Source: Oceanospirillaceae bacterium UBA2001
GTDB taxonomy: Bacteria > Pseudomonadota > Gammaproteobacteria > Pseudomonadales > Balneatricaceae
Direction: 5' to 3'
Length of the DNA stretch: 35,775 bases
NCBI GenBank assembly: GCA_002335115.1
Contig: DDCR01000168.1
Span: forward strand, 2,705-38,479
Shown here: piece after piece, positions 1,748 through 29,758 of the stretch
Position numbering within the stretch: position 1 is the stretch's first letter
How the letters are laid out: each line of letters begins with the position of its first letter
Notes under the pieces: model-generated
The model's input: the letters and a program-made list of their open reading frames with translations, nothing else
What the model was told of the DNA's origin: nothing
Databases searched by the model: none
Program-made: the position numbers and the translations under genes

Positions 1748-1767
1748 TAGTGCCTTTTTAGGCACTA
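1748..1767 (+). promoter_or_regulatory. Intercistronic stem-loop just before the ureA ribosome binding site
   Basis: A perfect 8-bp stem (TAGTGCCT / AGGCACTA) closes a TTTT loop. It is followed at once by a TAGGAG Shine-Dalgarno sequence and the ureA ATG at 1781. It lies in the only sizeable gap inside the urease operon (51 bases). It lacks a downstream T-tract, so it is more likely an mRNA processing or stability element, or a translation modulator, than a terminator. The function is inferred from position only. Confidence 0.55.
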
Positions 1768-1780
1768 TAGGAGTGAATTT

Positions 1781-2083: not shown

Positions 2084-2093
2084 GGAAAAACAG

Positions 2094-2402: not shown

Positions 2403-2412
2403 GGAATGGAAG

Positions 2413-4116: not shown

Positions 4117-4124
4117 GGCCAGTC

Positions 4125-4562: not shown

Positions 4563-4580
4563 GGCTAAGGTGTTTCTATA

Positions 4581-5246
4581 GTGGTGCCAACATTTAGATT
4601 GTTCCAGCTCATTAGCCCGTCACTGCCCGTGGGGGCCTTTTCATACTCTCAGGGGCTGGAGTGGGCCGTAGAATCAGGCTGGATTCATGATCAGGCAACT
4701 TTTGATGGCTGGTTGAGAGCTCAGCTCAGTGAGTGCCTAACCCGGCTCGAATTACCCATGCTAAATGCTGCCTGTGCAGCTATAGAGAGGCAGGATTGGC
4801 AGCGACTGCAGGATATTAGTCGAACTCTGATGGCCTGGAGGGAGACCAAAGAACTAAGGCAAGAAGAACAATTACGAGGCGAGGCATTAATGCGATTGTT
4901 ACCAAATCTAGGGATTATTGTGCCCGATATCATTCGCTCAGCAGCTCAGCGTAGTCAGGTGGTGGGATTAGCCATAGCGGGGGTTCAGTGGCATATTCAA
5001 ACTGAGGATTTATGCCGCGGTTATGTTTGGAGTTGGTTAGAAAATGCCGTCATAACAGGGGTGAAATTAATCCCTTTAGGGCAGACACAAGGCCAGCAGA
5101 TATTGCATGGGATGTCCTCTGCACTCGAACAAGCAGTTCAATCAGCTGCAGCAATTGCCTATGAAGACGCTGGCAGCAGCGCTCCAGCATTAGCCATTGC
5201 TAGTAGCAATCACGAAATTCAATATACACGTTTATTTAGGAGTTAA
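4581..5246 (+). CDS. ureF: Urease accessory protein UreF
   Basis: This 221-residue protein links UreD to the UreG GTPase and acts in fidelity and GTPase control of nickel insertion. The conserved N-terminal motif [20 protein letters not shown] (residues 9-28) is unmistakable, and the GxxWxxxxE-type C-terminal helices are present. Translation appears to start at GTG 4581: the conserved family N-terminus follows directly and there is no ATG nearer. It is one base short of abutting ureG's GTG start region (stop 5246, next start 5249). Confidence 0.96.
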
Positions 5247-5248
5247 TT

Positions 5249-5863
5249 GTGAATGAATATAAAATGCCCTTACGTATAGGGGTTGGTGGGCCCGTAGGTT
5301 CTGGCAAGACCGCATTGCTTGAAGCTGTCTGTAAAGCCATGCGAGATGACTATAATTTAGCAGTGGTCACCAATGATATTTATACCCAAGAGGATGCAAA
5401 AATTTTAACTCGGGCTGAGGCTTTAAGTGAAGATCGCATTATTGGGGTGGAAACAGGGGGATGCCCACATACAGCCATTCGAGAGGATGCTTCTATGAAT
5501 TTGGCTGCCATTGATACCCTTGCCCAGCGCCACAAAAATTTAGACATTGTATTTGTGGAAAGTGGAGGCGACAATTTAAGTGCCACGTTTAGTCCTGAGT
5601 TAGCAGACCTTACCGTCTTTGTTATCGACGTAGGAGAAGGAGAAAAAATTCCTCGCAAAGGTGGCCCGGGCATTACTAAATCCGATTTACTGGTCATCAA
5701 TAAAACCGACCTAGCCCCTTATGTTGGTGCTGACTTAGGCATTATGGAAGCTGATACCAATCGCATGCGCCCCGAAAAGCCATGGGTTTTTACTAACTTG
5801 AAAACGCTTAACGGTTTGGACGACATCATAGAATTCATTCGCCATTATGGTATGTTAACTTGA
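5249..5863 (+). CDS. ureG: Urease accessory protein UreG (GTPase)
   Basis: This 204-residue SIMIBI-class GTPase powers nickel insertion into urease. The P-loop GPVGSGKT is at residues 14-21, the metal-binding Cys-Pro-His at 72-74 ([13 protein letters not shown]), the [17 protein letters not shown] segment near 102 and the guanine-specificity motif NKTD near 151. GTG 5249 is used as start, with GGAG upstream inside the end of ureF. It is the last gene of the urease operon. The next gene points the other way, 89 bases downstream. Confidence 0.98.
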
Positions 5864-5952: not shown

Positions 5953-8007
5953 CTAGGGTGTCACCATCTTGAGTTCATTAACCATACGTTCACGGCGCTT
6001 ATCGTCGGGTTGGATGGGTGCTGCTCCCAGCTCGCGTGCCGCTTGGTGGCCCCCGTAGACAGCATGAGCGATTAAACCAGGTGCTGCACAGTCGCCAATG
6101 CGTTGTAAGGTTTTGAAGTGCTCAGCGAAGGGCTGTAACCCATGCCATAGTGAATCATTGGCAATGCGTGATGTTACAGGCACTAGATACTCGGCTTCAA
6201 TGGTGCTCACTGAACCTGTGAAGACACATTCTAATTGCGCCCTAGAATCTTGCCAAGACAGTAAGCCACGGTTATAGATGATGTCGATACCGGCGTCGAT
6301 GAGTTGCCGCATGACTGCGGCTTGGTCATCGGTGTAGGAATGCCAGCCGCCCACTAAAGAGGCAGGTGTGATCAGCGTCACTGCAATGCCACGTTGGCGT
6401 AATTTAAGTGCCAATAAGTTGCCCATGGAGTAATGATCGTCATCATAGACGATGGCCCTTCCATCGGGTATTTCATCACCCATAATGTCTTCTACTGAAA
6501 CCACTGTGTGGTCTTGGAAGCCGTCAAATGGGGACGCACTGTGACGGCCCACACCATCGGTGCGCCAATGGGCACCCGTGGCGACGAACACGTGTGTTGG
6601 GCTTAGTTCGAGTATGGCCTCTGTATCCAGCAGACTACTGGGGTAGATAGCCACGTTATCCATCTTTGCCAGCTGCCCCAGGCGCCAGTCTCTTACCCGT
6701 GCTACCTCAGACATGCCTGGCAAGCGTGATTCTTGGTTTATCCTGCCACCTAGCTCGCGTTCGGCTTCAGCAATGGTGACGGCGTACCCACGTTGGCCTA
6801 GGGCGCATGCGGCTTCTAGTCCTGCTGGGCCACTGCCGATGACCAGAACTGATTCATCTGCGTGTTGCTTAGCAATGCGCTCAGGGTGCCATCCTCGACG
6901 CCATTCTTCGCCCATGGTTGGATTCTGTGTACAACGAATCGGTGCGTTAAGGGAATCGTGGGCGTAACAGACGTTGCAGCCAATACACTCTCTAATGTCG
7001 TCGGGACGCCCATGTTTGATCTTATTGGGTAGAAAAGGATCGGCAATGGATGGGCGTGCAGCGCCAATGAAGTCTTGGGTGCCACTAGTGATCTGCTTAA
7101 GCATGGTATCTGGAGAAGTGAACCTGCCGACACTCACCACAGGCTTACTGGTGAGGGACTTGATTTTTGCGACAGCTAACTGGTTAGAGGCTTCTTCAAC
7201 AAATCGAGCGGTGCCCATTTCTAATGCATAATCGGTGACCGTGATATCCCATAGATCAGGTAATTCAGCTATTTGTGAGAACATACCTACCAAATCATCA
7301 GGGTCTTGATGGGGTACTGCTGGAATAGAATAACGCACTGCGACTGCACATTCGCCCTTCACTACCTCTAGGGTGTCTTGGATAATCTCTCTAATCAAGC
7401 GTACTCGGTTCTCTGGGCTACCACCATATTCGTCGTCGCGTTGATTCCATTCAGCCGACAAAAAGTTATTCAGCAAATAACCATGGTTGGTGTACACATA
7501 AACAATATCAAACCCTGCTTCAATGGCTCGCTGGGCGGCAGCTTTATGCCATTTGCGCAGCTTGGTAATATCGTCTTTGGTCATGGCTTGAGTTTGCAAA
7601 GGCATGCCAACGAGGGCGTCATTGGGGCGGCTTGATGCCGAAATAGCCTGCTCACGAGTGTACAAATTAGCGCTACTTTGGCCACCGTGCCATAGTTCTA
7701 TACCCGCTAAGGAGCCATGGGCATGCACTGCGTCTGTCATCAAACGTAAATTCTTAATATCGCCTTTATCCCATATAGAGGCGTGGGGGAACGGCATATC
7801 ATCGGAACTAGGGTGTATAGAACAATACTCGGTACAAACCACGCCCCAGCCACCCTCGGCTTTGATACCGCGCATCGCAGCCATCATCTGTGGGCGCATG
7901 TATCCCATGCCGCAACAGTGGGGTACTTGGTAAAACCGGTTGGGCGCTGTTACTGGGCCAATTTTAAGTGGCTCAAACAGAATATCATATTTGGGGTCGC
8001 GGCTCAT
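5953..8007 (-). CDS. Trimethylamine-dehydrogenase-like flavoprotein (NADH:flavin oxidoreductase family), first copy
   Basis: This 684-residue protein has the full trimethylamine dehydrogenase architecture. An FMN-binding TIM barrel comes first, with NRFYQVPHC placing Cys31 where trimethylamine dehydrogenase attaches FMN covalently. A 4Fe-4S motif follows near residue 345 (CIGCNVC, eleven residues, then CTQNP), and then an ADP/dinucleotide-binding half (GSGPAGLEAA). The active-site Tyr-x-x-His (VYVYTNH) is kept. Family members oxidatively remove N-methyl groups from tertiary or secondary amines (trimethylamine, dimethylglycine, N-methylproline). I chose ATG 8007 because AGGAAA precedes it and the family N-terminus begins there; an in-frame GTG at 8061 would add 18 unrelated residues. 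It is the third gene of the leftward arm, after the Rieske oxygenase. The exact substrate is unknown. Confidence 0.9.
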   Translation of the reverse strand: MSRDPKYDILFEPLKIGPVTAPNRFYQVPHCCGMGYMRPQMMAAMRGIKAEGGWGVVCTEYCSIHPSSDDMPFPHASIWDKGDIKNLRLMTDAVHAHGSLAGIELWHGGQSSANLYTREQAISASSRPNDALVGMPLQTQAMTKDDITKLRKWHKAAAQRAIEAGFDIVYVYTNHGYLLNNFLSAEWNQRDDEYGGSPENRVRLIREIIQDTLEVVKGECAVAVRYSIPAVPHQDPDDLVGMFSQIAELPDLWDITVTDYALEMGTARFVEEASNQLAVAKIKSLTSKPVVSVGRFTSPDTMLKQITSGTQDFIGAARPSIADPFLPNKIKHGRPDDIRECIGCNVCYAHDSLNAPIRCTQNPTMGEEWRRGWHPERIAKQHADESVLVIGSGPAGLEAACALGQRGYAVTIAEAERELGGRINQESRLPGMSEVARVRDWRLGQLAKMDNVAIYPSSLLDTEAILELSPTHVFVATGAHWRTDGVGRHSASPFDGFQDHTVVSVEDIMGDEIPDGRAIVYDDDHYSMGNLLALKLRQRGIAVTLITPASLVGGWHSYTDDQAAVMRQLIDAGIDIIYNRGLLSWQDSRAQLECVFTGSVSTIEAEYLVPVTSRIANDSLWHGLQPFAEHFKTLQRIGDCAAPGLIAHAVYGGHQAARELGAAPIQPDDKRRERMVNELKMVTP

Positions 8008-8056
8008 GGCAGTGTTTCCTGTGCTATGCCTATCCTGGGTGAACTCCTGTTGCGTT

Positions 8057-8104
8057 ACCACAACAGTGGGGCACTTGGTGAAGCCCCGTTAGTTTGAGGG
8101 GCTC
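8057..8104 (-). pseudogene. Fragment of a duplicated flavoprotein 5' end
   Basis: Read leftward in one frame, these 16 codons give EPLKLTGLHQVPHCCG. This mirrors EPLKI...FYQVPHCCG at residues 12-33 of the flavoprotein that starts just downstream at 8007, but with about six codons deleted. It is not in the frame of the functional gene. It sits between the Rieske gene and the intact flavoprotein, so it looks like the scar of a tandem copy or of gene replacement. Confidence 0.65.
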
Positions 8105-8121
8105 AACATTAAATGGTGAAG

Positions 8122-9321
8122 TTAATCTGCTGCTACCATCTGTTGATTGGTCTGTGCTAAGGTGCCTGCAGAGGGTGGAACGTCTAACGAGGTGACCGGG
8201 AGGGTTCTGCGTAACTGATTGTGAAAGGCGCAGGTCCCTATCTCCAAATTAGACATGATTGCCCCATTAAAGGCACTTGAGCGCATGCCTTCTGCTGACC
8301 ACTTAACAAGTTGTATATCTTCCTCACCTACCATGATGTTAATTTGTCGATTGTACTCTCGTGCACTTTTCATTTTGGGCCGGTCATCTGCAAGCGCATA
8401 GCTGCGTCCAGCCATGGCACTTTTTTGAAAGCCAATGGGGTAAGAGTGATAAATTTCAATTTGATCTGGAAACAGTGTGATCACAAAGCCTGGAAATGTG
8501 GACCAGTAAATCCATTGCCGCTGATGTGAGGGGGGTAGATAACTTTCTGTGGGGAGTGTATTCACATAATCCTGATTAAGTTGAGATTTATGTTTGCCTG
8601 CATCAATATCACCATATGAACGACTCACTTGATCATTCAGTACCTGATCTTCATAACTTCTGCCCACTAAGTCGTAGTAATCTTTATGTCCCATAGGTAC
8701 ATGATATCCCTCGCTATCAATATCGACGATTGACTTCCAATCACAGTTAAATTTCATCGTCCAGGGCTCATTAATTGGCTGCATGTCTTCAATTTTATAG
8801 AGTGAAATCTCTGTTTCGGCCTCTTTAAATGTTTCTGCAATACTCGGGCCACTACCAAAAAATCGGATAAAGATCATACCGTGCCATAGTTCGCATTCGA
8901 TGGGCTTTAACCCCAGTGTAGACTTGTCGATAGCGGGAAATGTTTCGGCCCGAGGGATATTCTTTAGGCGTCCATCAAGATGATAAGACCAGCCATGAAA
9001 AGGGCACACTAATGCATTTCTGCAATGACCTTTATCATTGGGAACCACTCTTGATGCACGATGGTTACAGACATTGTGAAAAGCCCGAACAACACCATCT
9101 TCGCCACGAATAATGAGCGCACGTTCATTAGCCATCTCCACACATTGGTAATCTCCTGTTTCAGCAAGCTCCGAGATATGGCCAGCCCACAACCAGCTTT
9201 TCAAGAAAACACTATTGATTTCTAGTTCCGTTAGTTCAGCGTTATTGTAAGTCCACGCGGGTAAGCCTTGGCGACCATTTTTGGCTTGTGCATAGACACT
9301 TTCTGGACTCTTAAATTTCAT
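8122..9321 (-). CDS. Rieske non-heme iron oxygenase, alpha subunit (candidate quaternary-amine N-demethylase)
   Basis: This 399-residue protein has an N-terminal Rieske 2Fe-2S domain with the ligand set Cys85-x-His87 and Cys106-x2-His109 (CNHRAS and CPFHGWSYH). The C-terminal catalytic domain shows the iron site DSEGYHVPMGH near residues 205-215. Relatives include glycine-betaine (GbcA), stachydrine (Stc2) and carnitine (CntA) oxygenases, as well as aromatic-ring oxygenases. The neighbourhood (amine flavoproteins, BetI-like regulator, cationic-substrate importer) favours a quaternary-amine substrate. No ferredoxin/reductase partner gene is in the window, so electrons must come from elsewhere. 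CGGAG precedes ATG 9321. It lies 26 bases after the aminotransferase in one operon. Confidence 0.88.
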   Translation of the reverse strand: MKFKSPESVYAQAKNGRQGLPAWTYNNAELTELEINSVFLKSWLWAGHISELAETGDYQCVEMANERALIIRGEDGVVRAFHNVCNHRASRVVPNDKGHCRNALVCPFHGWSYHLDGRLKNIPRAETFPAIDKSTLGLKPIECELWHGMIFIRFFGSGPSIAETFKEAETEISLYKIEDMQPINEPWTMKFNCDWKSIVDIDSEGYHVPMGHKDYYDLVGRSYEDQVLNDQVSRSYGDIDAGKHKSQLNQDYVNTLPTESYLPPSHQRQWIYWSTFPGFVITLFPDQIEIYHSYPIGFQKSAMAGRSYALADDRPKMKSAREYNRQINIMVGEEDIQLVKWSAEGMRSSAFNGAIMSNLEIGTCAFHNQLRRTLPVTSLDVPPSAGTLAQTNQQMVAAD

Positions 9322-9347
9322 TGTTAACGCTCCGAAAATACACCCAC

Positions 9348-10730
9348 TTAAAGGCTTTTAAAGGTCCCGTCAGCGATGCAATCCTGCATGGCTAACGCTA
9401 CGCCTTTGTAAAGAATATCGACTAAATCATCGACCTGTGCTTTGGTAATAATCAGTGGGGGCGATAAAACACACATATTGGCGAGTGGTCGCACAATTAA
9501 GCCCATGGCTTGGCAATGTTGGTCAATGCGATCCCCAATTTCATAGTCCATTTCTAAGTCGTCTGCCCCCCTAGTGAGTTCGCATTCAACACAGGCCATT
9601 AGGCCCAGCCCACGGACATCTCGAACAATGGGAATATCATAAAGTGATTTAATTCTTTGTTGGAAATAAGCACCGACTTCGCGCGCATTTTCGCATAGTT
9701 TTTCACGCTTTATTATTTCCAGATTTTTTAATCCAGCTGCAGCGGCCACTGGATGTCCAGAATAAGTAAAACCATTGGAAAATATAGCGCTCTCAAGGTC
9801 TGGGTTATTGAATTCATTGAGTAGTCGGTCTGAAACTAAAAAAGCCCCCATAGGGATGTAAGCCGAAGTCAAGCCTTTGGCCGTGGTGATAATATCAGGC
9901 ACAATATCAAACACAGCCTCGGAGGCAAAAATATGCCCAAGTCTGCCAAAGGAAGTAACAACTTCATCGGATATATAAAGCACGTCATATTGATGGCATA
10001 CGTCAAGGCAACGCTTGTGATAACCCGTGGGTGGAACAATGACGCCACCAGAAGCCAGAATCGGTTCCGCCACAAAAACGGCGACCTTGTCTGCTCCCAG
10101 TTCAAGAATTTTGTTTTCTAGGTCGGCAACACATTGATCGAGAAAATCTGCGTCAGTCATCTGCTCTGGTTTCAACAACGGGTGTGGTGCGGGTATGTGG
10201 TGCACAAGGTCGGTCGCAAAATCCAGATAGTTTTTATCTCGCTCCTTGCCAGACACACTTGCAGACAGGTAAGTACTGCCATGATAGCCCTTTAACCGAG
10301 AAATGATTTTTTTCTTCTCAGGTTTGCCCCGATAATTATTATAAAACTGGACAAAGCGTAAAGCTGAATCAACGGCTGTTGATCCGCACGTGGTGAGAAA
10401 TGCGTGGTTAAGATCACCCGGTGCTTCAGCTGCAAGTGCTTGACTAAATTGCGCGGCTGGGCTGGTGGCCATCGACCATGGCGAAGTGAATGGTAACTGC
10501 ATAACCTGATCATAAATGGCCTGTGCCATTTCCTTGCGACCATGCCCAATATTAACGCACCACATGCCTGAAGGACCGTCTATTGAGCGATTACCCTGAC
10601 TATCGTAAATATAAATCCCATCGCCTTTCTCAACCACAGTGCGTTGATTATTGCCCAAGTTTTGGAAGTTATCCCATGGGTGGATAAATAGATTGTCCTG
10701 TTTTTGAACCTGCGAAGTAGGGTTATTCAT
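9348..10730 (-). CDS. Class III (omega) aminotransferase, PLP-dependent
   Basis: This 460-residue fold-type I aminotransferase has the PLP lysine at residue 285 (TTAKGLTSAY), the cofactor aspartate at 255 (SDEVVTSFGR) and the phosphate-binding CGSTAVDSA segment near 115. Class III members move amino groups from terminal primary amines such as putrescine, beta-alanine, GABA or taurine to a keto acid. It is the first gene of the leftward arm. CTGGAG lies 7 bases before ATG 10730, and the promoter region is shared with the tetR-type gene. In context it could act on the primary amine left after N-demethylation. The specificity is not readable from the sequence. Confidence 0.9.
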   Translation of the reverse strand: MNNPTSQVQKQDNLFIHPWDNFQNLGNNQRTVVEKGDGIYIYDSQGNRSIDGPSGMWCVNIGHGRKEMAQAIYDQVMQLPFTSPWSMATSPAAQFSQALAAEAPGDLNHAFLTTCGSTAVDSALRFVQFYNNYRGKPEKKKIISRLKGYHGSTYLSASVSGKERDKNYLDFATDLVHHIPAPHPLLKPEQMTDADFLDQCVADLENKILELGADKVAVFVAEPILASGGVIVPPTGYHKRCLDVCHQYDVLYISDEVVTSFGRLGHIFASEAVFDIVPDIITTAKGLTSAYIPMGAFLVSDRLLNEFNNPDLESAIFSNGFTYSGHPVAAAAGLKNLEIIKREKLCENAREVGAYFQQRIKSLYDIPIVRDVRGLGLMACVECELTRGADDLEMDYEIGDRIDQHCQAMGLIVRPLANMCVLSPPLIITKAQVDDLVDILYKGVALAMQDCIADGTFKSL

Positions 10731-10782
10731 AGATCTCCAGGAGCCAGTTCATTGGTCTAAGTTACGCTTATTACTATCACTT

Positions 10783-10800
10783 ACTGAGTAAATACTCAGT
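10783..10800. promoter_or_regulatory. Palindromic operator in the divergent promoter region
   Basis: ACTGAGTA-AA-TACTCAGT is a perfect 8-2-8 inverted repeat between the divergent aminotransferase (start 10730) and TetR-family gene (start 10871). On the minus strand, a -35-like TTGACT (revcomp of 10798-10803) overlaps the palindrome. On the plus strand the palindrome is just upstream of the tetR promoter. Size and symmetry suit a TetR-family dimer, so the adjacent regulator is the likely ligand-controlled repressor of both arms. Confidence 0.65.
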
Positions 10801-10810
10801 CAATTTATAC

Positions 10811-10839
10811 TGGACAAAACTTTATTTGTCAATAATAAT
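10811..10839 (+). promoter_or_regulatory. Sigma-70-like promoter of the TetR-family gene
   Basis: TGGACA (10811-10816), a 17-base spacer and AATAAT (10834-10839) form a reasonable sigma-70 promoter 32 bases before the regulator's start codon. Ten bases separate the palindromic operator from the -35 box, close enough for autoregulation. This is a prediction from consensus only. Confidence 0.45.
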
Positions 10840-10870
10840 GAAGTCATAAAGTGTTCCATAAGGAGCGTCA

Positions 10871-11545
10871 ATGGACGTTGCGCTAGTCCAAAAAAGCCAC
10901 CAGTCACACCGAAGTAGAGCGGTTCAATCACTACTTCGAAAGCAACAGTTAATTGGTTCTACCATTGAATGTATAGACCAGTTTGGCTTGTCACAAACGA
11001 CCATAGCCAAGATAGCTCTGCATGCAGGAGTATCGCAGGGGGTGGTTATCTTTCACTTCCAAACTAAGGAACTGTTGCTTGAGCAGGTCCTGCGGTTTTT
11101 GTCCAAGGCCTACACTGACAACTGGAAATCGGCGATTGCTTTAGCCGGAGAGGCCCCTATTGATCAATTGTGTTCAATCGTTTTATCAGCCTTTAGCCCA
11201 GAAGTGTGTAATCGCAAGAATGTGGGAGTGTGGTATGCATTTTGGGGTGCGTCACAATCGAGGCCAACCTACCAAGAAGTCTGTGGTCAAACGGATAGGG
11301 AGTTTTCATCGACATTACTGAGTTTATGCACCCAGTTATGTGTGGGTGTAAAAATGTCGGTGTCAGCGGAAGTCGCTGCCATGGGCATCGAAGGGATGCT
11401 CGATGGTTTGTGGCAAAGTTGCCTGATTGAAGAAAGTAAATTCAGCCCGAAAGAGGCCAATAAAACAGTGTTCGCTTTAATGGAACTTATGTTTCCATTG
11501 GAGAAAAGCACCATAGAGGAGTATAAAGAGTCACTAGTGATGTAA
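10871..11545 (+). CDS. TetR/AcrR-family transcriptional regulator, BetI-like
   Basis: This 224-residue regulator has an N-terminal helix-turn-helix (TIAKIALHAGVSQGVVIFHF, residues 45-64) in the typical TetR position. The C-terminal ligand domain shows the BetI-type segment (WYAFWGASQSRPTYQEV near 123, then GIEGMLDGLW near 173). BetI represses choline/betaine genes and responds to choline, so a quaternary amine is a plausible inducer here. AAGGAG lies 4 bases before ATG 10871. It heads the rightward arm and faces the aminotransferase operon across a palindromic site. Its N-terminus is about 20 residues longer than in BetI. Confidence 0.88.
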   Translation: MDVALVQKSHQSHRSRAVQSLLRKQQLIGSTIECIDQFGLSQTTIAKIALHAGVSQGVVIFHFQTKELLLEQVLRFLSKAYTDNWKSAIALAGEAPIDQLCSIVLSAFSPEVCNRKNVGVWYAFWGASQSRPTYQEVCGQTDREFSSTLLSLCTQLCVGVKMSVSAEVAAMGIEGMLDGLWQSCLIEESKFSPKEANKTVFALMELMFPLEKSTIEEYKESLVM

Positions 11546-11594
11546 AAATAATAAATAGTTTTAATTAATTATTGGACTTGTTACTATGATCATT

Positions 11595-11617
11595 ATTTTG
11601 AACAATGTGTTCAAAAT
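11595..11617. promoter_or_regulatory. Perfect 10-3-10 inverted repeat upstream of the binding-protein gene
   Basis: ATTTTGAACA-ATG-TGTTCAAAAT lies 34 bases before the chosen start of the solute-binding protein. It could be a second operator, unlike the TetR-type palindrome in sequence, or a leader hairpin. It falls inside an open stretch that would extend the binding protein by 22 residues, but that extension would push the signal peptide away from the N-terminus, so I treat this stretch as non-coding leader. Confidence 0.5.
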
Positions 11618-11651
11618 CGTGGACACATTAAACATGCAAATTGGAGAGAAC

Positions 11652-12770
11652 ATGAAATATAAAAACAAAAAGTTCGTTCAACACTTAACAGGTGGAACCA
11701 TAGCCTTGAGTCTTTTGGTAGGTGCATCTGCTGTGCAAGCTGCAGGTGTATTAAATGTAACTAACTGGGCAGAGTATATTGCTGAAGACACCATCGCGAA
11801 TTTTGAAAAAGAATTCGACATTAAGGTGACCTATGATAACTATGATTCAGAAGAATCCATACAGTCAAAATTGCTCGCTGGCAGTTCTGGCTATGATGTG
11901 GTGAGTCACTCAAGTAGCGCAGTTGCAAGGTTACTTCCTGCCAATATTCTGCAAAAGCTAGATAAATCCAAACTGCCGAATCTCAAACATATAATGGATA
12001 GCCTTGATCAGCAAATGGATTCTAATATAGACCCAGGTAACCATTATTTCACACCTTATATGTGGGGCACACACGGTGTTACCTATAATAAGGCATTGGT
12101 TTTAGAAACTTACCCAGATGCCCCCATTGGATCAATGGATATGGTTTTTGATCCAGTACATATGGAAAAACTGGCAAAGTGTGGCGTAGCCTTTTTAGAC
12201 TCGCCTACAGACATCCTGCCCATGGCGTTGGCACATATGGGACTAGACCCCTATTCAGCAAGCAAGGCGGACTATGCCGCTGCTGAAGAAATGTTGTCTG
12301 CCATTCGACCTTACGTCAAAACCTTCGACAATTACGCCTATAATCAAATGCCACTGAAAGAGTTTTGTATTGCAGTGACCTGGGGACCAGATGGTTTATT
12401 AGCCATGTCCGGTGCCGAAGAAGCAGACACAGGTGTCGTGCTTGAGTTTTTTGTACCACCAGGAAACGGTAAGGCGATGTTGTGGATTGACGGTTTGGTG
12501 ATTCCATCAGATGCGAAGAATGTTGAAAATGCTCACTTGTTCATCAACTATATGATGCGCCCTGAAGTGGCGGCAGCTAATAGTAATTACACTTGGTATG
12601 CCAGTGGCAACAAGAGTGCCTTTGACTTGATTGATCCAGCAGTGACAGGTAGCCCAGCAGCTTACCCTACTGCTGAATCAGTGGCGCAAATGTACACCTA
12701 CAAAGCGATCCCAAGAAAAATACAGAAAGCACGGACTCGTGCTTGGACAAAGTTTAAATCTGGCCAATAA
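11652..12770 (+). CDS. Periplasmic substrate-binding protein of a polyamine-type ABC importer (PotD/PotF-like)
   Basis: This 372-residue protein has a signal peptide: a basic start MKYKNKK, a hydrophobic core and a cleavage site near VQAAG (about residue 30). The mature part follows PotF closely: NWAEYIAEDTIANFEKEFDI, then AGSSGYDVV, PYMWGTHGVTYN and a C-terminal RTRAWTKFKSGQ. PotF has NWSDYI where this protein has NWAEYI, and its sugar-like central region differs (VTWGPDG, LWIDGLVIP). The cationic ligand may therefore not be putrescine. ATG 11652 is chosen over an upstream in-frame ATG because GGAGAG precedes it and it begins the signal peptide. It is followed by an 11-bp stem-loop and the ATPase gene. 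Confidence 0.92.
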   Translation: MKYKNKKFVQHLTGGTIALSLLVGASAVQAAGVLNVTNWAEYIAEDTIANFEKEFDIKVTYDNYDSEESIQSKLLAGSSGYDVVSHSSSAVARLLPANILQKLDKSKLPNLKHIMDSLDQQMDSNIDPGNHYFTPYMWGTHGVTYNKALVLETYPDAPIGSMDMVFDPVHMEKLAKCGVAFLDSPTDILPMALAHMGLDPYSASKADYAAAEEMLSAIRPYVKTFDNYAYNQMPLKEFCIAVTWGPDGLLAMSGAEEADTGVVLEFFVPPGNGKAMLWIDGLVIPSDAKNVENAHLFINYMMRPEVAAANSNYTWYASGNKSAFDLIDPAVTGSPAAYPTAESVAQMYTYKAIPRKIQKARTRAWTKFKSGQ

Positions 12771-12784
12771 TATCGCAAGCCTTG

Positions 12785-12811
12785 CAGTTACCGTTTCTCG
12801 AACGGTAACTG
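12785..12811 (+). promoter_or_regulatory. Intercistronic stem-loop between binding protein and ATPase genes
   Basis: A perfect 11-bp stem (CAGTTACCGTT / AACGGTAACTG) closes a five-base loop, TCTCG, 14 bases after the binding-protein stop. No T-run follows. Such hairpins often protect the upstream mRNA, or partly terminate transcription, so that the binding protein is made in excess over the membrane parts. The role here is inferred from position. Confidence 0.7.
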
Positions 12812-12854
12812 TCTGGCCTGTGACCTATTAAATATCAGCCACTGGATTTTCACG

Positions 12855-13997
12855 ATGTCACAACAAACTAATGATTCTCATAGACCTTGGCTCGATGGTG
12901 ACGCTGAGCCATTTATTAAAATTCGCAATGTTACTAAAAAATTTGGCGAATTCACTGCAGTAGACAATATTGATCTTGATATTTATAAAGGTGAACTATT
13001 TTCCTTACTGGGTGGGTCTGGTTGTGGAAAAACAACCTTATTGCGCATGCTAGCTGGATTTGAACCTCCATCAAGTGGCACTATTTATATCGACGGTGTT
13101 GATATGACTGATGTACCTCCCTATGCTCGCCCGATCAATATGATGTTTCAATCTTATGCTCTATTCCCGCACATGACGGTTGAACAAAATGTTGCCTATG
13201 GACTTAAACGCGATAAAATTTCAAAGGACGAAATTACACGGCGTGTTGATGAAATTCTCAGCATGGTTGAATTATCAGATTTTATTAAGCGCAAACCCCA
13301 TCAGCTTTCAGGTGGGCAGCGGCAACGGGTGGCCCTTGCTCGTGCTCTGGTTAAACGGCCGAAAGTACTTTTACTCGATGAACCCCTCGGAGCATTAGAC
13401 AAACGCTTAAGGGAGCAGACGCAATTTGAGTTGATCAATATTCAAGATGACCTCGGCGTGACCTTCGTCGTTGTGACCCATGATCAGGAAGAAGCCATGA
13501 CCTTGTCGACTCGCATGGCGATGATGGATGCAGGTAAGTTCCAGCAAATTGGTACCCCAGCAGAAGTGTATGAGTACCCTGAATCACGATTGGTGGCCAA
13601 CTTCATTGGTTCAGCAAATATGTTTGAGGGACGGGTTAGCCAGAGTGGTCCTGATCATGTGATTGTTGCCAGTAAAGCGTTAGGTGTCGAGTTTAATACT
13701 GAGCACACTAATTCAATCATCGAGGGAACAAAAGTCTGGATCGCAGTGCGCCCAGAAAAAATTACCCTATCAAAAATGCCTTTGGATGCGATCACTAACC
13801 AGCTTAAAGGAGTTGTCGTTGATATTGGCTACAATGGTAAAACCTCCACCTATCGAATACGTATTAGTAACGATCAAATTATTGAAGTGAGCGTGCCAAG
13901 CCAAAAGCGCCCAAAGGGTGATCGACAATTAATAGACTGGGATGAAGAAATTTATCTGAACTGGGACCAATCTAATGCCGTGGTGCTGATGAAATGA
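12855..13997 (+). CDS. ABC importer ATP-binding protein, PotA-like
   Basis: This 380-residue ATPase powers the polyamine-type importer encoded around it. Walker A is GGSGCGKT (53-60), the Q-loop lies in MMFQSYALFPHMTV near 100, the signature is LSGGQRQRVALARAL near 155, Walker B is LLLDEPLGALD near 175 and the H-loop is VTHDQEEAMT near 209. The C-terminal third is a TOBE-type regulatory domain, as in PotA. Its stop overlaps the next gene's start (ATGA at 13994-13997), so translation is probably coupled. The Shine-Dalgarno is weak (CTGGA). Confidence 0.93.
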   Translation: MSQQTNDSHRPWLDGDAEPFIKIRNVTKKFGEFTAVDNIDLDIYKGELFSLLGGSGCGKTTLLRMLAGFEPPSSGTIYIDGVDMTDVPPYARPINMMFQSYALFPHMTVEQNVAYGLKRDKISKDEITRRVDEILSMVELSDFIKRKPHQLSGGQRQRVALARALVKRPKVLLLDEPLGALDKRLREQTQFELINIQDDLGVTFVVVTHDQEEAMTLSTRMAMMDAGKFQQIGTPAEVYEYPESRLVANFIGSANMFEGRVSQSGPDHVIVASKALGVEFNTEHTNSIIEGTKVWIAVRPEKITLSKMPLDAITNQLKGVVVDIGYNGKTSTYRIRISNDQIIEVSVPSQKRPKGDRQLIDWDEEIYLNWDQSNAVVLMK

Positions 13998-14953
13998 ACC
14001 CAGTGAATCATGCCAATCATTCAGCGGGGCCATTAGTCAACCGATTGCTATTACGCTTGGTGGAACTCTTGCAGTCGCGCTGGAAGGTGATTGTTGTTGG
14101 TATTCCCTTTTTCTGGCTACTGTTGTTTTTTTTGGCACCATTTATTATTGTGATTAAGGTCAGTCTTGCTGAATCAATAATTGCAAGCCCACCTTTTTCG
14201 CCGTTGTATGAACGAGCTGAAGATGGTGCGCTCAGCATTAGAGTAATTTTTGAAAACTATAGCTATCTTTGGGAAGATGATCTTTACATAAATAGCTATA
14301 TTAATTCGGTCAAGATAGCGTCGGTATCAACTGTGTGTTGCTTACTTATCGGCTACCCGATGGCCTATTGCATTGCCCGTTCTAACCCAACCACCAAAAA
14401 TATCTTGTTAATGTTGGTCATTTTACCATTTTGGACATCATTTCTTTTGCGAGTCTATGCATGGATGGGTTTGCTAGCAGATCAAGGGACAATTAACAGC
14501 CTCCTAATTTGGCTGGGTGTCATTGATGAACCGATTCGGATGCTCTATTCAGAATTGGCCGTTTATATTGGCATTGTGTATTCCTACCTACCATTTATGA
14601 TCTTACCTTTGTATGCGAATATGGAAAAGCTTGATGTAACCCTTGACGAGGCGGCCGCAGATTTGGGTGCTAAACCTACCATCGCATTTCTTACAGTAAC
14701 TCTGCCGTTAACCTTGCCCGGTATTATTGCCGGTTCTTTGTTAGTGTTTATTCCAGCAACTGGTGAATTTGTTATTCCAGATTTATTAGGTGGTGGAAAT
14801 GTGTTGATGATTGGTCGGATTCTTTCAGATGAATTTAACGCCAATAGCGATTGGCCGTTAGCCTCTGCTGTGGCCATTGTGTTGCTCATCGTTTTGGTAT
14901 TGCCGATGGTGCTATATCAACGGATTCAGGCACGTGAACGGGGTAATCTATGA
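13994..14953 (+). CDS. ABC importer permease, PotB-like
   Basis: This 319-residue inner-membrane protein has about six transmembrane segments. The first is at residues 36-56 (GIPFFWLLLFFLAPFIIVI), and a large periplasmic loop follows before the transport core. The cytoplasmic EAA loop, which contacts the ATPase, reads LDEAAADLGAKPTIAFLTVTLP near residue 216. It overlaps the ATPase gene upstream and the partner permease downstream by 4 bases each, so the three are one translationally coupled set. Confidence 0.92.
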   Translation: MNPVNHANHSAGPLVNRLLLRLVELLQSRWKVIVVGIPFFWLLLFFLAPFIIVIKVSLAESIIASPPFSPLYERAEDGALSIRVIFENYSYLWEDDLYINSYINSVKIASVSTVCCLLIGYPMAYCIARSNPTTKNILLMLVILPFWTSFLLRVYAWMGLLADQGTINSLLIWLGVIDEPIRMLYSELAVYIGIVYSYLPFMILPLYANMEKLDVTLDEAAADLGAKPTIAFLTVTLPLTLPGIIAGSLLVFIPATGEFVIPDLLGGGNVLMIGRILSDEFNANSDWPLASAVAIVLLIVLVLPMVLYQRIQARERGNL

Positions 14954-15774
14954 AGCAGCGCCGCTCAACATTTGTCCTGTCGATGCTGTGCTTTGGTTTA
15001 GCATTTCTTTACATTCCCATGATTTTGCTGATTATTTATTCGTTTAACTATTCAAAACTTGTGCCTGTATGGGGTGGTTTTTCAACGCGTTGGTATACCG
15101 TATTGTTTGAAAGTGAAGAGATGTGGGCTGCGTTAGGTTTAAGCTTACGCATCGCCTTGGTTAATGCGACGTTTGCGATGATACTGGGAACGCTTGCTGG
15201 TATTGCCTTGGTGCGTTTTGGACGGTTTCGAGGGCGTACACTATTTACAGGCTTGATTACGGCACCATTGGTGATGCCTGAAGTAATCACGGGTTTGTCA
15301 TTGCTGCTGCTCTTTATTGCTTTAAGTCATGCATTTGGCTGGCCACAGCGAGGCTTTACCACCATCACCATTGCTCACATAACCTTTTCCATGGCCTATG
15401 TTGCGGTTATTATTCAGTCGCGACTCTCTGGCATGGGTACTGATTTAGAGGATGCCGCCCAGGATCTAGGTGCTCGGCCTTTAAGAGTTATGTTTGACAT
15501 TACACTGCCACTATTGGCCCCCGGCATGGTTGCAGGATGGCTATTGGCATTTACACTATCAATTGATGACTTAATTATTGCCAGTTTTGTGTCTGGGCCT
15601 GGGTCCAATACTCTGCCTATGCTCATTTACTCACGGGTAAAAGTAGGTTTGCGTCCTGATATTAATGCACTGGCAACGATTATGATTGTGATGGTCAGCA
15701 TTGGCGTATTACTCGCATGTTGGTTAATGATCCGTCAAAAGCATTTGCTGGAGCGTGATGCGAACACTAAGTAA
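14950..15774 (+). CDS. ABC importer permease, PotC-like
   Basis: This 274-residue second permease has an N-terminal membrane segment (LCFGLAFLYIPMILLIIYSF), about six spans in total, and the EAA loop LEDAAQDLGARPLRVMFDITL near residue 164. The SFNYSK/W-G-G-FS segment near 30 is typical of PotC. It completes the importer formed by the three preceding genes and is followed 34 bases later by the second flavoprotein gene of the same arm. Confidence 0.92.
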   Translation: MKQRRSTFVLSMLCFGLAFLYIPMILLIIYSFNYSKLVPVWGGFSTRWYTVLFESEEMWAALGLSLRIALVNATFAMILGTLAGIALVRFGRFRGRTLFTGLITAPLVMPEVITGLSLLLLFIALSHAFGWPQRGFTTITIAHITFSMAYVAVIIQSRLSGMGTDLEDAAQDLGARPLRVMFDITLPLLAPGMVAGWLLAFTLSIDDLIIASFVSGPGSNTLPMLIYSRVKVGLRPDINALATIMIVMVSIGVLLACWLMIRQKHLLERDANTK

Positions 15775-15808
15775 AGTAATCAAAATTAATTGCCATGGGG
15801 CAAAGTAA

Positions 15809-17899
15809 ATGCCTAATTATGATGTGTTATTTGAAGCCGTTAAGATTGGCCCAGTAACGGCTAAAAATCGCTTTTATCAAGTGCCCCATTGCTGTGGTAT
15901 GGGACACTTGCGTCCCCAAGCCCACGCTGCGATGCGGGGTATGAAAGCCCAAGGTGGATGGGCTGTAGTAAGTACGGAAGAAACAGAGATTCATCCCAGT
16001 TCTGATTTGTCGCCTGCTGTGGAACAACGTCTCTGGGACGAGCGCGATATCCCTGCACTGCAATTAATGACTCAAAGCGTACATGAGCATGGTGCTTTGG
16101 CAGCCATTGAATTAGTGCATAACGGCCATCACTCTTCTAACTTATATTCTCGCACCCCAGCATTGGCGCCCAGCAGCCGTTCTTTGGACATTATTTATCC
16201 AAAACAAGCGCGGGCCATGGATAAAGCTGATATTCGAGAGTTTCGTCGTTGGCATAAAGCTGCGGCTATACGCGCCAAGCAAGCTGGTTTTGACATCGTT
16301 TATGTCTATGCTGGGCACGAAATGTCTTTGCCACATCATTTTTTATTACCTGAATATAATCAAAGAATAGATGAATATGGTGGCAGTTTGGAAAACCGGT
16401 TAAGACTCACCAAAGAACTGCTACAGGACACGCAAGAGGCCATAGGTGACAGCTGTGCTGTCGCATTTCGTTTTGCTGTAGACCAAATGCTTGGTCGTAA
16501 TGGTATGCAAGCGCATGAAGAAGGCAGGGCAGTTGTGGAAATGCTGGCAGATATCCCAGATCTGTGGGACGTGAATGTGTCAGGTTGGGGCAATGACTCG
16601 GCCACCTCACGTTTTCAACCCGATTCAGGCTACCAAACCGAATACACAAAGTTTGTAAAACAAGTGACCAATAAACCGGTGGTGGGGGTGGGTCGGCTCA
16701 CCTCACCTGACATGATGGTGTCGTTAATTAAACAAGGCGTGCTTGATTTTATTGGGGCGGCAAGGCCGTCTATCGCAGACCCCTTTTTACCCAATAAAAT
16801 CCAACAACAAAGGATCGAAGAAATTCGAGAATGTATTGGCTGCAATGTGTGTGTGTCTTGCGATAATCTAGGTGTGCCCATTCGTTGTACACAAAATCCG
16901 ACGATGGGTGAAGAGTGGCGTCGTGGCTGGCATCCAGAAAAAATTGTGGCTGCTAAAACCCCACAGCCTGTGTTAGTTGTGGGTGCTGGACCCGCGGGTT
17001 TAGAGTGTGCTTTACAATTAGCCAACCGTGGCTATGAGGTGATTCTTAGTGAAGCGAGTAAGCAATTAGGGGGCCGAGTAATATCTGAGTCTAATTTAAA
17101 AGGGTTGGCGATATGGCGCCGTGTAAGTGATTACCGCATCTATCAGTTACAACAGATGGACAATGTTAATATCTACCTCGACAGTGCCTTAGACGTGCAA
17201 CAAGTATTGGAACTAGGTATTGAACACGTGTTTGTTGCCACAGGCGCTCTCTGGAGAAAAGACGGTATTGGCCGTTCTTCCCGAACGCCGATCCTTGGCT
17301 TAGACCAAGTCGCCATCTACACCCCTGATGACATTATGAGTGGTGTCTCCCTAGGCCCCGGTCCAATAGTGATCTATGACGATGAACAAGGTTACTTGGG
17401 CAGCGTGGTGGCCGATCATTTGAGTGATTTAGGACATGGGGTTAGTTTTGTCACTAGTGCCAGTATCGTATCACCTTTTACAGAACTTACGCTTGAACAA
17501 AAACAAGTACAACAGGGCTTGGTCGCTCAAGGTGTAGGCATTTACACCAACAAGATCATTGCTAGCCTTAGCCAAAAGTCTGGTCATGTTGGTGTTGAAT
17601 TGAAGTGTCACTATGGTGGTGAAGATCAATGGCTTGCTTGTGCCAGTTTAGTATTAGTCACAGAACGCGAATCAGCCTCACTTTTGTATGAACAATTACA
17701 GCAGTTGCAAGAAGATAATGGCGCCTCCTCCCCCATGCCAATACCTATGTCAGTCACCTTAATTGGTGATGCGCTGGCGCCAGGTTTGATTGCTGACGCT
17801 GTATTCTCTGGCCACCAAGGCGCACAGGAGTTTGAAGCTGATCCTGAAAGGGTACAACAAGGGCTATTCAAGCGCGAAATGCCGAGCCTCAATGCATAA
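15809..17899 (+). CDS. Trimethylamine-dehydrogenase-like flavoprotein, second copy
   Basis: This 696-residue protein is a paralogue of the flavoprotein at 5953-8007 with the same domain order. It has an FMN barrel with Cys28 in NRFYQVPHC (the covalent FMN site of trimethylamine dehydrogenase), a 4Fe-4S motif CIGCNVC followed eleven residues later by CTQNP, and a dinucleotide-binding half starting VLVVGAGPAGLECA. The Tyr-x-x-His pair is kept (VYVYAGH). The barrel segment after DLWD differs (NVSGWGNDSATSRF here, ITVTDYALEMGTARF in the other copy), which suggests a different amine substrate. ATG 15809 gives the family N-terminus directly. It is in the rightward arm with the transporter and the cupin. 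The reaction is inferred as oxidative N-demethylation. Confidence 0.9.
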   Translation: MPNYDVLFEAVKIGPVTAKNRFYQVPHCCGMGHLRPQAHAAMRGMKAQGGWAVVSTEETEIHPSSDLSPAVEQRLWDERDIPALQLMTQSVHEHGALAAIELVHNGHHSSNLYSRTPALAPSSRSLDIIYPKQARAMDKADIREFRRWHKAAAIRAKQAGFDIVYVYAGHEMSLPHHFLLPEYNQRIDEYGGSLENRLRLTKELLQDTQEAIGDSCAVAFRFAVDQMLGRNGMQAHEEGRAVVEMLADIPDLWDVNVSGWGNDSATSRFQPDSGYQTEYTKFVKQVTNKPVVGVGRLTSPDMMVSLIKQGVLDFIGAARPSIADPFLPNKIQQQRIEEIRECIGCNVCVSCDNLGVPIRCTQNPTMGEEWRRGWHPEKIVAAKTPQPVLVVGAGPAGLECALQLANRGYEVILSEASKQLGGRVISESNLKGLAIWRRVSDYRIYQLQQMDNVNIYLDSALDVQQVLELGIEHVFVATGALWRKDGIGRSSRTPILGLDQVAIYTPDDIMSGVSLGPGPIVIYDDEQGYLGSVVADHLSDLGHGVSFVTSASIVSPFTELTLEQKQVQQGLVAQGVGIYTNKIIASLSQKSGHVGVELKCHYGGEDQWLACASLVLVTERESASLLYEQLQQLQEDNGASSPMPIPMSVTLIGDALAPGLIADAVFSGHQGAQEFEADPERVQQGLFKREMPSLNA

Positions 17900-17934
17900 T
17901 TTATTAAGCACAATCATGCCTCAAGGAACGCACG

Positions 17935-18282
17935 ATGAAACCCATCCCTAAAACAGATCGACGCGTGGTGAATATTTTTGAAAGCGCGTTTACTCCCATT
18001 CAATCAAACGGTAAACCCGATGGTGAAGTGCTGCAACTTAATACTGATAAACCTTTAGGCAGTGGCTTTTATATTTATAAAATGGCTCCAGGAGCTGCAA
18101 CAGTGCCCCATAAACACAAAGGTGACGAGGAATTCTTGATTATCCAAGGAGACTTAAGAGACCATGATGGTGTCGATTATGGCCCTGGTGATCTAGTGTG
18201 GTTGCGCGACGGTACTGTGCACAATTCATCCACAAAAAACGGTTGTCTTATCGCAGTCAGCGCCTTGGAACCTGATTTTTAG
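17935..18282 (+). CDS. Small cupin-domain protein
   Basis: This 115-residue single-domain cupin has motif 1 as VPHKHKGDEEFLIIQGDL (residues 57-74), with the two metal-type His and the Glu, and motif 2 as PGDLVWLRDGTVHNSSTKNG (near 83). It could bind a metal ion or small ligand. Stand-alone cupins are common in amine and amino-acid catabolic operons, but a defined reaction cannot be assigned. It is the last gene of the rightward arm. Its stop codon (18280-18282) directly abuts the stop of the convergent FAD oxidase, leaving no space for a separate terminator. Confidence 0.8.
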   Translation: MKPIPKTDRRVVNIFESAFTPIQSNGKPDGEVLQLNTDKPLGSGFYIYKMAPGAATVPHKHKGDEEFLIIQGDLRDHDGVDYGPGDLVWLRDGTVHNSSTKNGCLIAVSALEPDF

Positions 18283-19569
18283 CTAAATATTTAAGCTGTC
18301 CATGAATCGGTAATACATAAGAGATGGTGCAAGAAACCATGGCTTTCCTGTGTAGAGGGGACGCGTCTGAAATTTAATGTCATTAAAAGGGGTCTGGCCT
18401 TGCTCTAGTCCCAGCACCTGTTGTCCCATTCTCATCCCAAGATACCCAGCCATGCCTACGCCTGAGCCACAGTAGCCCATGGCATAGTGTAGGCCATCTT
18501 CTGCTCCTACATGCATGAGGGAGTCAAAAGTAAAGGCCACAAAGCCCATCCAAGAATGGCTTATTTTTGTATGTTCTAATTCTGGGAAAATTTGAGTCAG
18601 GGATTGATGGAGCTTGGGGGCACTGAAGCGAGGATTACTTTCTCTTAGAGACACGCGTCCACCGAATATAATACGACTTCTGTCAGGGCTTGGACGATAA
18701 TAATACACCACCTTACGGGTGTCACTAACGATGCGATCTTTGGGCATTAGCTTATCCATCAGCTCTTTTGCAACGGGCTCTGTGGCAATGACATAGCTGC
18801 CTATAGGAATAACCCTGCGTTGCAAACGGGGGGTTAGGGAGCCTGTATAACCGTTGGTCGCAATAATCACCTTATCGGCTTGCACAGTACCTTTTGAGGT
18901 TTTTACGCTAAAACCACTTTTATCCCGGTTGATATTTTCAGCTGCGCAGCAAGAAATAATGGATGCGCCAGCATCACGCGCTTTACCCATTAAGCCTTTA
19001 TGATAAGCGGCAGGGTCGACTGAAGCATGCTGAGGGAATATCGCCCCACCAAAATAGGTATCTGTGCCTAATTCGAAGTGCTGCTCTGATCTTGGGATCA
19101 TATAGGCGTCATGCTCAAGTCCGGGAACTTGATAATCAAGCGCCCTTGCAAGTTTGTCATATTGCGCACTGTTATGTGCGGCATGAAAGCACCCTACCTC
19201 AGCATAACTGCAGTCAAGGTTTTCCTCTCTAATAAAATCGCCAGTAAACTTTAATGAGTGTTCACCTTCTTTATGAATGGCAAAAGCCATGTCTTTGCCG
19301 TGTGTTTTTTCAAGTTCAGAAAAACTCGGTTTGATGCTGTTACTGACTTGGCCACCGTTTCTTGTACTGCAACCCCAGCCAGCATGTTCGGCATCAATGA
19401 CTAACGTGTGCCTTGACCCTCGAGCGGTCTGGATGGCTGCATGAAGCCCTGTATAGCCTGCACCAATGATCAGCACATCAACCTTTTTAGGAAGTTCTGT
19501 GGTTTGCTCTGTGGGTGGTGCGCTGCGATCCCACCAATAAGGCTGGGCTTTGAAATCTTGTGTGAACAT
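18283..19569 (-). CDS. FAD-dependent amine oxidase of the DAO family, PuuB-like
   Basis: This 428-residue flavoprotein has the dinucleotide motif VLIIGAGYTGLHAAIQTA (residues 32-49), the CSTRNGGQVSN segment near 68 typical of gamma-glutamylputrescine oxidases (PuuB) and sarcosine/N-methyl amino acid oxidases, and the C-terminal FAD-binding MGYCGSGVGMAGYLG near 374. The N-terminal YWWDRS box matches PuuB-type proteins. It probably oxidises a secondary or primary amine to an imine with transfer of electrons to O2 or a quinone. AAGAGA precedes ATG 19569. It could take part in the amine pathway next door or serve the D-amino-acid genes upstream; the sequence does not decide. Confidence 0.85.
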   Translation of the reverse strand: MFTQDFKAQPYWWDRSAPPTEQTTELPKKVDVLIIGAGYTGLHAAIQTARGSRHTLVIDAEHAGWGCSTRNGGQVSNSIKPSFSELEKTHGKDMAFAIHKEGEHSLKFTGDFIREENLDCSYAEVGCFHAAHNSAQYDKLARALDYQVPGLEHDAYMIPRSEQHFELGTDTYFGGAIFPQHASVDPAAYHKGLMGKARDAGASIISCCAAENINRDKSGFSVKTSKGTVQADKVIIATNGYTGSLTPRLQRRVIPIGSYVIATEPVAKELMDKLMPKDRIVSDTRKVVYYYRPSPDRSRIIFGGRVSLRESNPRFSAPKLHQSLTQIFPELEHTKISHSWMGFVAFTFDSLMHVGAEDGLHYAMGYCGSGVGMAGYLGMRMGQQVLGLEQGQTPFNDIKFQTRPLYTGKPWFLAPSLMYYRFMDSLNI

Positions 19570-29752: not shown

Positions 29753-29758
29753 ATAAAA

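Follow-up and report, generated by a model that had tools for sequence, protein, structure and literature searches.

The closest described relatives of the genes considered here are found among the Rieske oxygenases that act on quaternary ammonium compounds (CntA, GbcA, Stc2), the flavoproteins of the trimethylamine dehydrogenase (TMADH)/histamine dehydrogenase family, the Pot and Spu importers and the Puu genes of E. coli. CntA cleaves carnitine to trimethylamine, and in TMADH it is Tyr60 that faces methylated amines. Relatives of these genes lie side by side in a 35,775-nt stretch (henceforth the window) of contig DDCR01000168.1, positions 2,705 to 38,479, from the genome of Oceanospirillaceae bacterium UBA2001 (2.45 Mb, 201 contigs, 90% complete). 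Ten genes of the window, at 5953–18282, form a divergent cluster. From sequence comparison we give an even chance to the reading that this cluster serves the uptake and catabolism of an N-methylated, probably quaternary, di- or polyamine under the control of a BetI-type regulator. Domain and family scans recovered here, in two divergent arms, every gene family that a first-pass annotation of the DNA had named.

The arms flank a 140-bp intergenic region. The minus arm runs from the class III aminotransferase through the Rieske oxygenase to flavoprotein A, and the plus arm from the BetI-type regulator through PotF, PotG, PotH, PotI and flavoprotein B to the cupin. Spacing within the arms is tight, with gaps of 26–84 bp or 4-bp overlaps.

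The Rieske protein has the cluster ligands C85, H87, C106 and H109 (the C-H/C-H pattern) and the 2-His-1-carboxylate iron site H207, H212 and D335. Its bridging residue is E204; Glu is also found at this position in CntA, four GbcA sequences and Stc2, whereas HcaE and BphA1 have Asp. In a tree of 54 of the 99 aligned sequences, it was split with 100/99 support from these last two, which are aromatic ring hydroxylases. CntA was the nearest named branch, with weak support (90/66), and GbcA and Stc2 formed a separate clade; with the GbcA model (NF058607), whose cut-off is 670 bits, the window protein scored 134.1. The predicted structure, a weak model that we take as supporting only (pLDDT 67.5 on average and below 50 in parts of the Rieske domain), had three equally near solved folds, those of Stc2, CntA and terephthalate dioxygenase. 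We thus predict an enzyme of the quaternary-ammonium type that would catalyse demethylation or C-N cleavage. The first-pass annotation had named clustering with aromatic-ring hydroxylases as an outcome that would count against it; checked against the two enzymes above, it did not occur.

To what extent the gene set recurs was assessed with two patterns for the Rieske protein alone, run over 84,980 species genomes. They returned 85 relatives, of which 80 were kept (and not counted as evidence for the bridging Glu, which one of the patterns itself includes). The flank count covers 79 of the 80 loci; the one dropped (L029), in which a longer frame overlaps the Rieske frame, carries the aminotransferase, the regulator and both flavoproteins. 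Identity thresholds were 50% for the aminotransferase, 40% for the regulator, 55% for PotF and PotG, 60% for PotH and PotI, 43% for the flavoproteins, 40% for the cupin and 28% for the oxidase that adjoins the cluster. Clade 1 comprises the 21 counted loci with at least 54% Rieske identity, among which the aminotransferase (20/21), a TMADH-type flavoprotein (19/21), the regulator (16/21) and the importer or binding protein (15/21) are common, several contigs stopping short of the missing genes. All ten clade-1 loci longer than 13 kb have the aminotransferase, the regulator and a flavoprotein, and nine have the binding protein. Among the 50 loci of a wider group (L030–L079, Rieske identity 36–47%), the importer is present in 35, a TMADH-type flavoprotein in 14, the aminotransferase in seven, the cupin in five and the regulator in none at these thresholds. 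The grouping is not due to chance, because loci chosen by Rieske patterns alone have the other families alongside. The co-occurrence that the first-pass annotation had put forward as a check is borne out for most of the set, which recurs in other gammaproteobacteria.

Eight further loci of actinobacterial title (L080–L087) had no cluster family at the count thresholds, except for one distant oxidase. Their Rieske relatives are 24–29% identical, and several share neighbour clusters of their own; L080 alone has a remote Pot importer (25–46%), and a 36% flavoprotein adjoins its Rieske gene. To judge from record titles, most carriers are probably marine. Among them are the Olavius algarvensis Gamma 3 symbiont (worm), a Bugula neritina symbiont (bryozoan), the sponge-named Candidatus Spongiihabitans, Arenicellales and Granulosicoccaceae. 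A plasmid record of Shinella sp. PSBB067 carries Rieske (41%), aminotransferase (50%) and BetI-type (35%) genes. The Pot-type importer beside them is a different one, and frames for flavin amine oxidase are also present. The sister genome from the same genus (G013) shows two peculiarities: its PotF gene is split into two overlapping frames (L105:12108–13245), by sequencing error or as a broken gene, and between flavoprotein B and PotI it has an additional BetI-like gene and a copy of flavoprotein A (57% identity).

The nature of the substrate is best approached through the binding protein, whose translation probably begins only at 11652, at a later ATG, as judged by eye. Its PDB matches include what we take to be SpuD and SpuE, and it reached 312.2 bits with the PotF model (NF007962) against a cut-off of 636. 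We compared 46 such proteins, that of the window included (longer than 330 aa, more than 55% identity), using a pocket numbering and choice of positions that we assume for E. coli PotF. All keep Trp37, Tyr40, Asp247, Asp278 and Tyr314, and 45 of 46 keep Trp at position 244; unlike E. coli PotF, all have Glu39, Ser182, Asp185, Asn226, Pro246 and Trp276, and in 45 of 46 Ser38 is replaced by Ala or Gly. Of 24 pocket positions compared, 14 are different in the window protein and in E. coli PotF. Given the invariance of aspartates 247 and 278, the mark of PotF-like dication binding, the residues suggest a pocket of the dication type with altered ends. No second PotF match was found in the genome itself at E up to 0.001. 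Among 274 genomes of the class, a search at E up to 1e-90 found a PotF relative in three others. The pocket signature is present in two of these (one is cut and visible only from position 182), and each of the two lies in a cluster of this kind; in the third the pocket is more canonical, and two Rieske genes are 16–19 kb off.

Both flavoproteins are homologous over their full length to TMADH and histamine dehydrogenase, with the FMN-linking Cys and the four iron-sulfur Cys aligned. Neither has the complete aromatic bowl of TMADH, which we take to be Tyr60, Trp264 and Trp355 (labels and roles being our assumption). Flavoprotein A has Tyr, Tyr and Asp at these positions; among 18 of its relatives, position 60 is Tyr in 15 and Trp in three, position 264 is always Tyr, and position 355 is Asp in 12 and Asn in six. 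Flavoprotein B has Cys30, Glu60, Trp264 and Asp355, as do all 14 relatives compared. (Relatives were kept if longer than 600 aa and more than 43% identical, those above 760 aa being trimmed to their last 720 residues.) Thus, the distal bowl of both contains an acidic or amide residue, as in histamine dehydrogenase, which may be read as making room for a further positive charge on the substrate. For flavoprotein B, demethylation and dehydrogenation of an amine are equally compatible readings.

The regulator combines a PF00440 domain with a BetI-type C-terminal domain (PF13977) and falls below the cut-offs of both BetI models (101.5 against 201.3 bits for TIGR03384, 103.3 against 118 for NF001978, i.e. 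PRK00767). A putative operator of the BetI type is present in the divergent promoter region. Of the 18 divergent regions (the window included), 17 contain the motif TGA-N8-TCA within the limits at which they were cut out, compared with 6.8% of shuffled regions, and a stricter form ending in TCAAT in 13 of 18 compared with 0.5% of shuffles. The 18th region (L020) had been cut one base short, and the site appears on reading further, as noticed after the count. The predicted site of the window, CTGAGTAAATACTCAG, is a perfect palindrome, and the betI-betT region of E. coli carries TTGATTGGACGTTCAAT, with the same layout.

The first PDB match of the aminotransferase is 3i5t (459.9 bits), with the polyamine:pyruvate transaminase 9j4z in third place (337 bits). 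Cupin homologues of at least 40% identity occur in the five loci of the wider group, with none among the 21 of clade 1; the sister genome has one with 91% identity. There, the adjoining oxidase (18283–19569 in the window) is also kept beside the cupin and flavoprotein B (86% identity). Its best NCBIfam model is AmaA, an L-pipecolate oxidase, at 166.6 bits against a cut-off of 600. An adjoining PuuB-like oxidase had been proposed before; the gene does adjoin the cluster and is 30% identical to E. coli PuuB, but another contig holds a better PuuB homologue (45%).

That contig contains homologues of PuuB, PuuA (44%) and PuuD (42%) together. It also has another PuuA-like gene and an aminotransferase of the PRK07480 family. 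Genes reminiscent of polyamine breakdown also accompany the cluster elsewhere. A PuuA-like ligase (28–41% identical to E. coli PuuA) lies within 10 kb of 11 of the 21 clade-1 loci, nine of them among the ten longer than 13 kb, and an agmatinase-family gene within 10 kb of nine of the 21 (the one representative scanned was above the curated cut-offs). A PuuB-like oxidase (40–50% to E. coli PuuB) adjoins four of the 21, three of these being fragments at contig or flank ends, and some clade-1 loci also lie near a second aminotransferase of the PRK07480 type, a GntR regulator or a glutamine amidotransferase. No single locus with PuuA, PuuB, PuuC and PuuD was found, the cluster having only its adjoining 30% PuuB-like oxidase (PuuC was not searched for genome-wide). 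The first-pass annotation had left the substrate open between N-methylated polyamines and several betaines. We favour N-methylated polyamines, because of the dication-type pocket, the PuuA-like, agmatinase and PuuB-like neighbours and the puuA, puuB and puuD homologues of the genome; carboxylated betaines appear less likely.

What we say of the substrate, the order and products of the reactions and the ligand of the regulator is a proposal drawn from the gene content, its conservation, the operator and the active-site residues. PotFGHI would take up a dicationic methylated amine, and the Rieske enzyme would oxidise one N-methyl group on a quaternary nitrogen with release of formaldehyde. Flavoprotein A, and perhaps B, may then oxidise the tertiary or secondary N-methyl amine, again releasing formaldehyde. 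The class III aminotransferase would turn the freed primary amine into an aldehyde, and the remaining breakdown could proceed via the Puu-type genes on the other contig. Stepwise N-demethylation followed by transamination, as first suggested, is still the best reading of the gene set, with the Rieske protein outside the two ring hydroxylases compared. The idea of one flavoprotein per methyl group was not upheld, since long clade-1 loci vary in their content of A and B. Similarly, a self-contained regulon is apt as far as the ten linked genes go, but neither a Rieske reductase nor an aldehyde dehydrogenase was noticed in it, and the other polyamine genes are on another contig.

Several observations weigh against the N-methylated polyamine reading. 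The pocket aspartates argue for a dication and not for methylation, and the polyamine neighbours could track the Pot importer and not the demethylases. Those PuuA-like proteins that were scanned gave 181.8–206.2 bits, the cut-off for gamma-glutamylputrescine synthetase being 650. The glutamine amidotransferase beside six loci is not recognisably PuuD; we dropped this candidate, whose best match to E. coli PuuD covers 29 residues (E 0.009). At the thresholds used, the ten long clade-1 loci comprise four with both flavoproteins, four with only B and two with only A (in one of the latter, L008, flavoprotein B sits just past the flank). The importer is missing from 15 of the 50 wider loci, and the Shinella binding protein is a different one, without the two pocket aspartates (a weak alignment at 22% identity). 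When 15 genomes from the genus, that of the window included, were searched, only two had this Rieske gene, which is therefore an accessory trait there. One relative (G375) has the set without it: the PuuA-like gene, a second aminotransferase and a PuuB-like gene (42%) continue the importer arm, and the best Rieske protein in this 97% complete genome is only 29% identical, which fits an optional first step. Finally, the cluster has no dedicated reductase, and an NCBIfam scan that covered 30 of the 39 frames in the window showed no FNR-type reductase. A YeaX search of the 90% complete genome gave no match, an empty result that proves little. A candidate partner for the Rieske protein came from a PF00175 search, which found two genes elsewhere in the genome, one with Fer2, FAD and NAD domains.

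Among other explanations, an ordinary pathway for unmethylated polyamines holds up best, although we still regard it as unlikely. Here the Rieske enzyme would N-dealkylate or hydroxylate a secondary amine and the flavoproteins would be polyamine dehydrogenases akin to histamine dehydrogenase, which is the closest PDB entry for both. The Glu60/Trp264/Asp355 pattern of flavoprotein B suits this, as does a flavin amine oxidase present in 16 of the 79 counted loci. Against it, the bridging Glu and the tree group the Rieske protein with quaternary-ammonium enzymes, position 60 is mostly Tyr in flavoprotein A relatives, and the pocket, over a list of positions that we assume, is unlike that of E. 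coli PotF. The flavin amine oxidase (one representative has PF01593) is divergent from the Rieske gene in L056, L077 and L078 and convergent in L011.

Rather unlikely, in our judgement, is an omega-trimethylamino acid such as beta-alanine betaine or gamma-butyrobetaine, demethylated to beta-alanine or gamma-aminobutyric acid (GABA) and then transaminated. The characterised relatives with a bridging Glu (CntA, GbcA, Stc2) act, we take it, on carboxylated betaines, and class III aminotransferases presumably accept beta-alanine and GABA; the BetI-type regulator and the different Shinella binding protein point the same way. Both PotF-type aspartates, however, are invariant in the 46 binding proteins and suit two cationic ends, and the shared neighbours include the PuuA-like ligase, agmatinase and PuuB-like oxidase. 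Improbable is a free methylated basic amino acid, such as trimethyllysine (laminine) or the trimethyl-hydroxylysine of diatom silaffins. Such residues occur in diatom cell walls, according to the portion of PMC4557024 used here, and AmaA is the best model, though under its cut-off, for the adjoining oxidase. The AmaA match is not specific to lysine breakdown, because the 45% PuuB homologue of the genome matches AmaA more strongly (198 against 167 bits), and the pocket of the window protein keeps both aspartates and has no new basic residue at the compared positions. An aromatic-ring hydroxylase within a cluster for aromatic amine degradation, suggested by source records that call several homologues aromatic ring-hydroxylating or phenylpropionate dioxygenases and by the structural tie with terephthalate dioxygenase, was rejected on the Glu bridge and the 100/99 tree split, with two ring hydroxylases as yardsticks, and is largely refuted, no beta subunit or ring-cleavage gene having been seen in the cluster.

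Features of the cluster and the adjoining oxidase, in window coordinates. Bit scores are given with model cut-offs where available.
Feature	Position	Strand	Basis
Flavoprotein A, TMADH/histamine dehydrogenase family, 702 aa	5953..8061	-	PDB matches 3k30 and 6de6 (histamine dehydrogenase, best), then 6l6j and 1djn (TMADH)
Rieske oxygenase, predicted quaternary-ammonium type, 399 aa	8122..9321	-	Rieske and Ring_hydroxyl_A domains, ligand residues, tree
Class III aminotransferase, 460 aa	9348..10730	-	PRK07036, 680.3 bits (cut-off 618)
Operator-like palindrome CTGAGTAAATACTCAG (TGA-N8-TCA)	10784..10799	n/a	Divergent promoter region
TetR regulator, BetI-type C-terminal domain, 224 aa	10871..11545	+	PF13977, PF00440
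PotF/SpuD-type periplasmic binding protein	11586..12770	+	PDB matches to SpuD/SpuE (names presumed) and PotF, 276–294 bits
PotG-type ATPase	12855..13997	+	TIGR01187, 409 bits (cut-off 355.6); PotG, 484 bits (cut-off 613)
PotH-type permease	13994..14953	+	PotH, 394.5 bits (cut-off 489)
PotI-type permease	14950..15774	+	PotI, 349.3 bits (cut-off 476)
Flavoprotein B, histamine dehydrogenase/TMADH family, 696 aa	15809..17899	+	PDB 3k30, 692.9 bits
Small ChrR-type cupin, 115 aa	17935..18282	+	PF12973
FAD-dependent amine/amino-acid oxidase (DAO), convergent neighbour, loosely PuuB-like	18283..19569	-	30% identity to E. coli PuuB

Urease genes (UreD, the gamma and alpha subunits, UreE, UreF and UreG) occupy 896–5863, convergent with flavoprotein A; the beta subunit presumably lies at 2076–2402. 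The agmatinase that relatives encode close to the cluster would yield urea. Beyond the oxidase, an MlrC-type M81 metallopeptidase (19659–21134) adjoins a dgcA/dgcN pair for D-glutamate metabolism (21584–23586, both above NCBIfam cut-offs). Further on, 28130–35123 holds a GMC choline-dehydrogenase-like oxidoreductase, a choline-sulfatase-like enzyme (under its cut-off) and an oligopeptide/nickel-type ABC importer. Neither NCBIfam nor Pfam gave a match at E 1e-5 for a 125-aa minus-strand frame at 24525–24902, which may not be a gene.

Should the N-methylated polyamine reading hold, the range of Rieske demethylases would extend from betaines to polyamines. The portions drawn on of three sources report that diatom silica contains N-methylated polyamines and lysines, in some cases bearing quaternary ammonium groups, that long-chain polyamines are present in sponge spicules and that an N-trimethylspermidine conjugate comes from a coral (PMC4557024, PMC2763108, PMC4273220). 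It is possible, if on balance doubtful, that the cluster is a route for mineralising quaternary or methylated polyamines, for example pieces of the long-chain, methylated polyamines found in diatom and sponge silica. The steps we tentatively suggest for such silica polyamines are import, opening of the quaternary nitrogen by the Rieske enzyme, demethylation by flavoproteins, transamination and handover to Puu enzymes. Symbiont and sponge-named carriers fit a marine role. The conserved gene set includes a binding protein that can be tested, making the breakdown of methylated polyamines directly testable, and Shinella sp. PSBB067, a named strain, is a possible culturable test organism.

No bacterial pathway demethylating such polyamines was found in the literature searched, most subscription papers being beyond its reach, nor was such a cluster found in that on homarine, beta-alanine betaine, TMADH with Rieske enzymes or histamine dehydrogenase active sites. 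The locus is best described as known enzyme families in a conserved combination for which we found no description, its target probably being polyamines and not betaines. Like CntAB (YeaW/YeaX), it has a Rieske protein with a bridging Glu and, by prediction, a quaternary ammonium substrate, CntA being the nearest, if weakly supported (90/66), named branch. In E. coli, however, the yeaX reductase gene follows that of CntA, whereas the cluster has no adjacent FNR-type reductase, and the E. coli locus (10 kb) is without such a flavoprotein, aminotransferase or Pot importer. The Pseudomonas pathway of GbcAB, DgcAB and SoxBDAG is similar in that a Rieske enzyme starts serial demethylation, but the pathway as set out in the part of PMC12093977 used here includes neither an aminotransferase nor a Pot importer. 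GbcA also belongs to a clade apart from the window Rieske, which scores far under the cut-off of the GbcA model. The stachydrine demethylase Stc2 likewise falls in a separate clade, and its reductase gene, Stc4, is adjacent to Stc2. TMADH and histamine dehydrogenase share with both flavoproteins their whole length, the FMN-linking Cys and the iron-sulfur cysteines; the active sites are mixed in comparison with TMADH, A having Tyr60 without Trp264 or Trp355 and B having Glu60, Trp264 and Asp355. PotFGHI and SpuDE provide the importer architecture and the pocket aspartates, but the binding protein is under the PotF cut-off and its pocket is derived. Lastly, the E. coli puu locus has no Rieske or TMADH-like gene; its likeness to our system lies in the PuuA- and PuuB-like genes beside the cluster in some relatives and in the PuuA, PuuB and PuuD homologues elsewhere in the genome.

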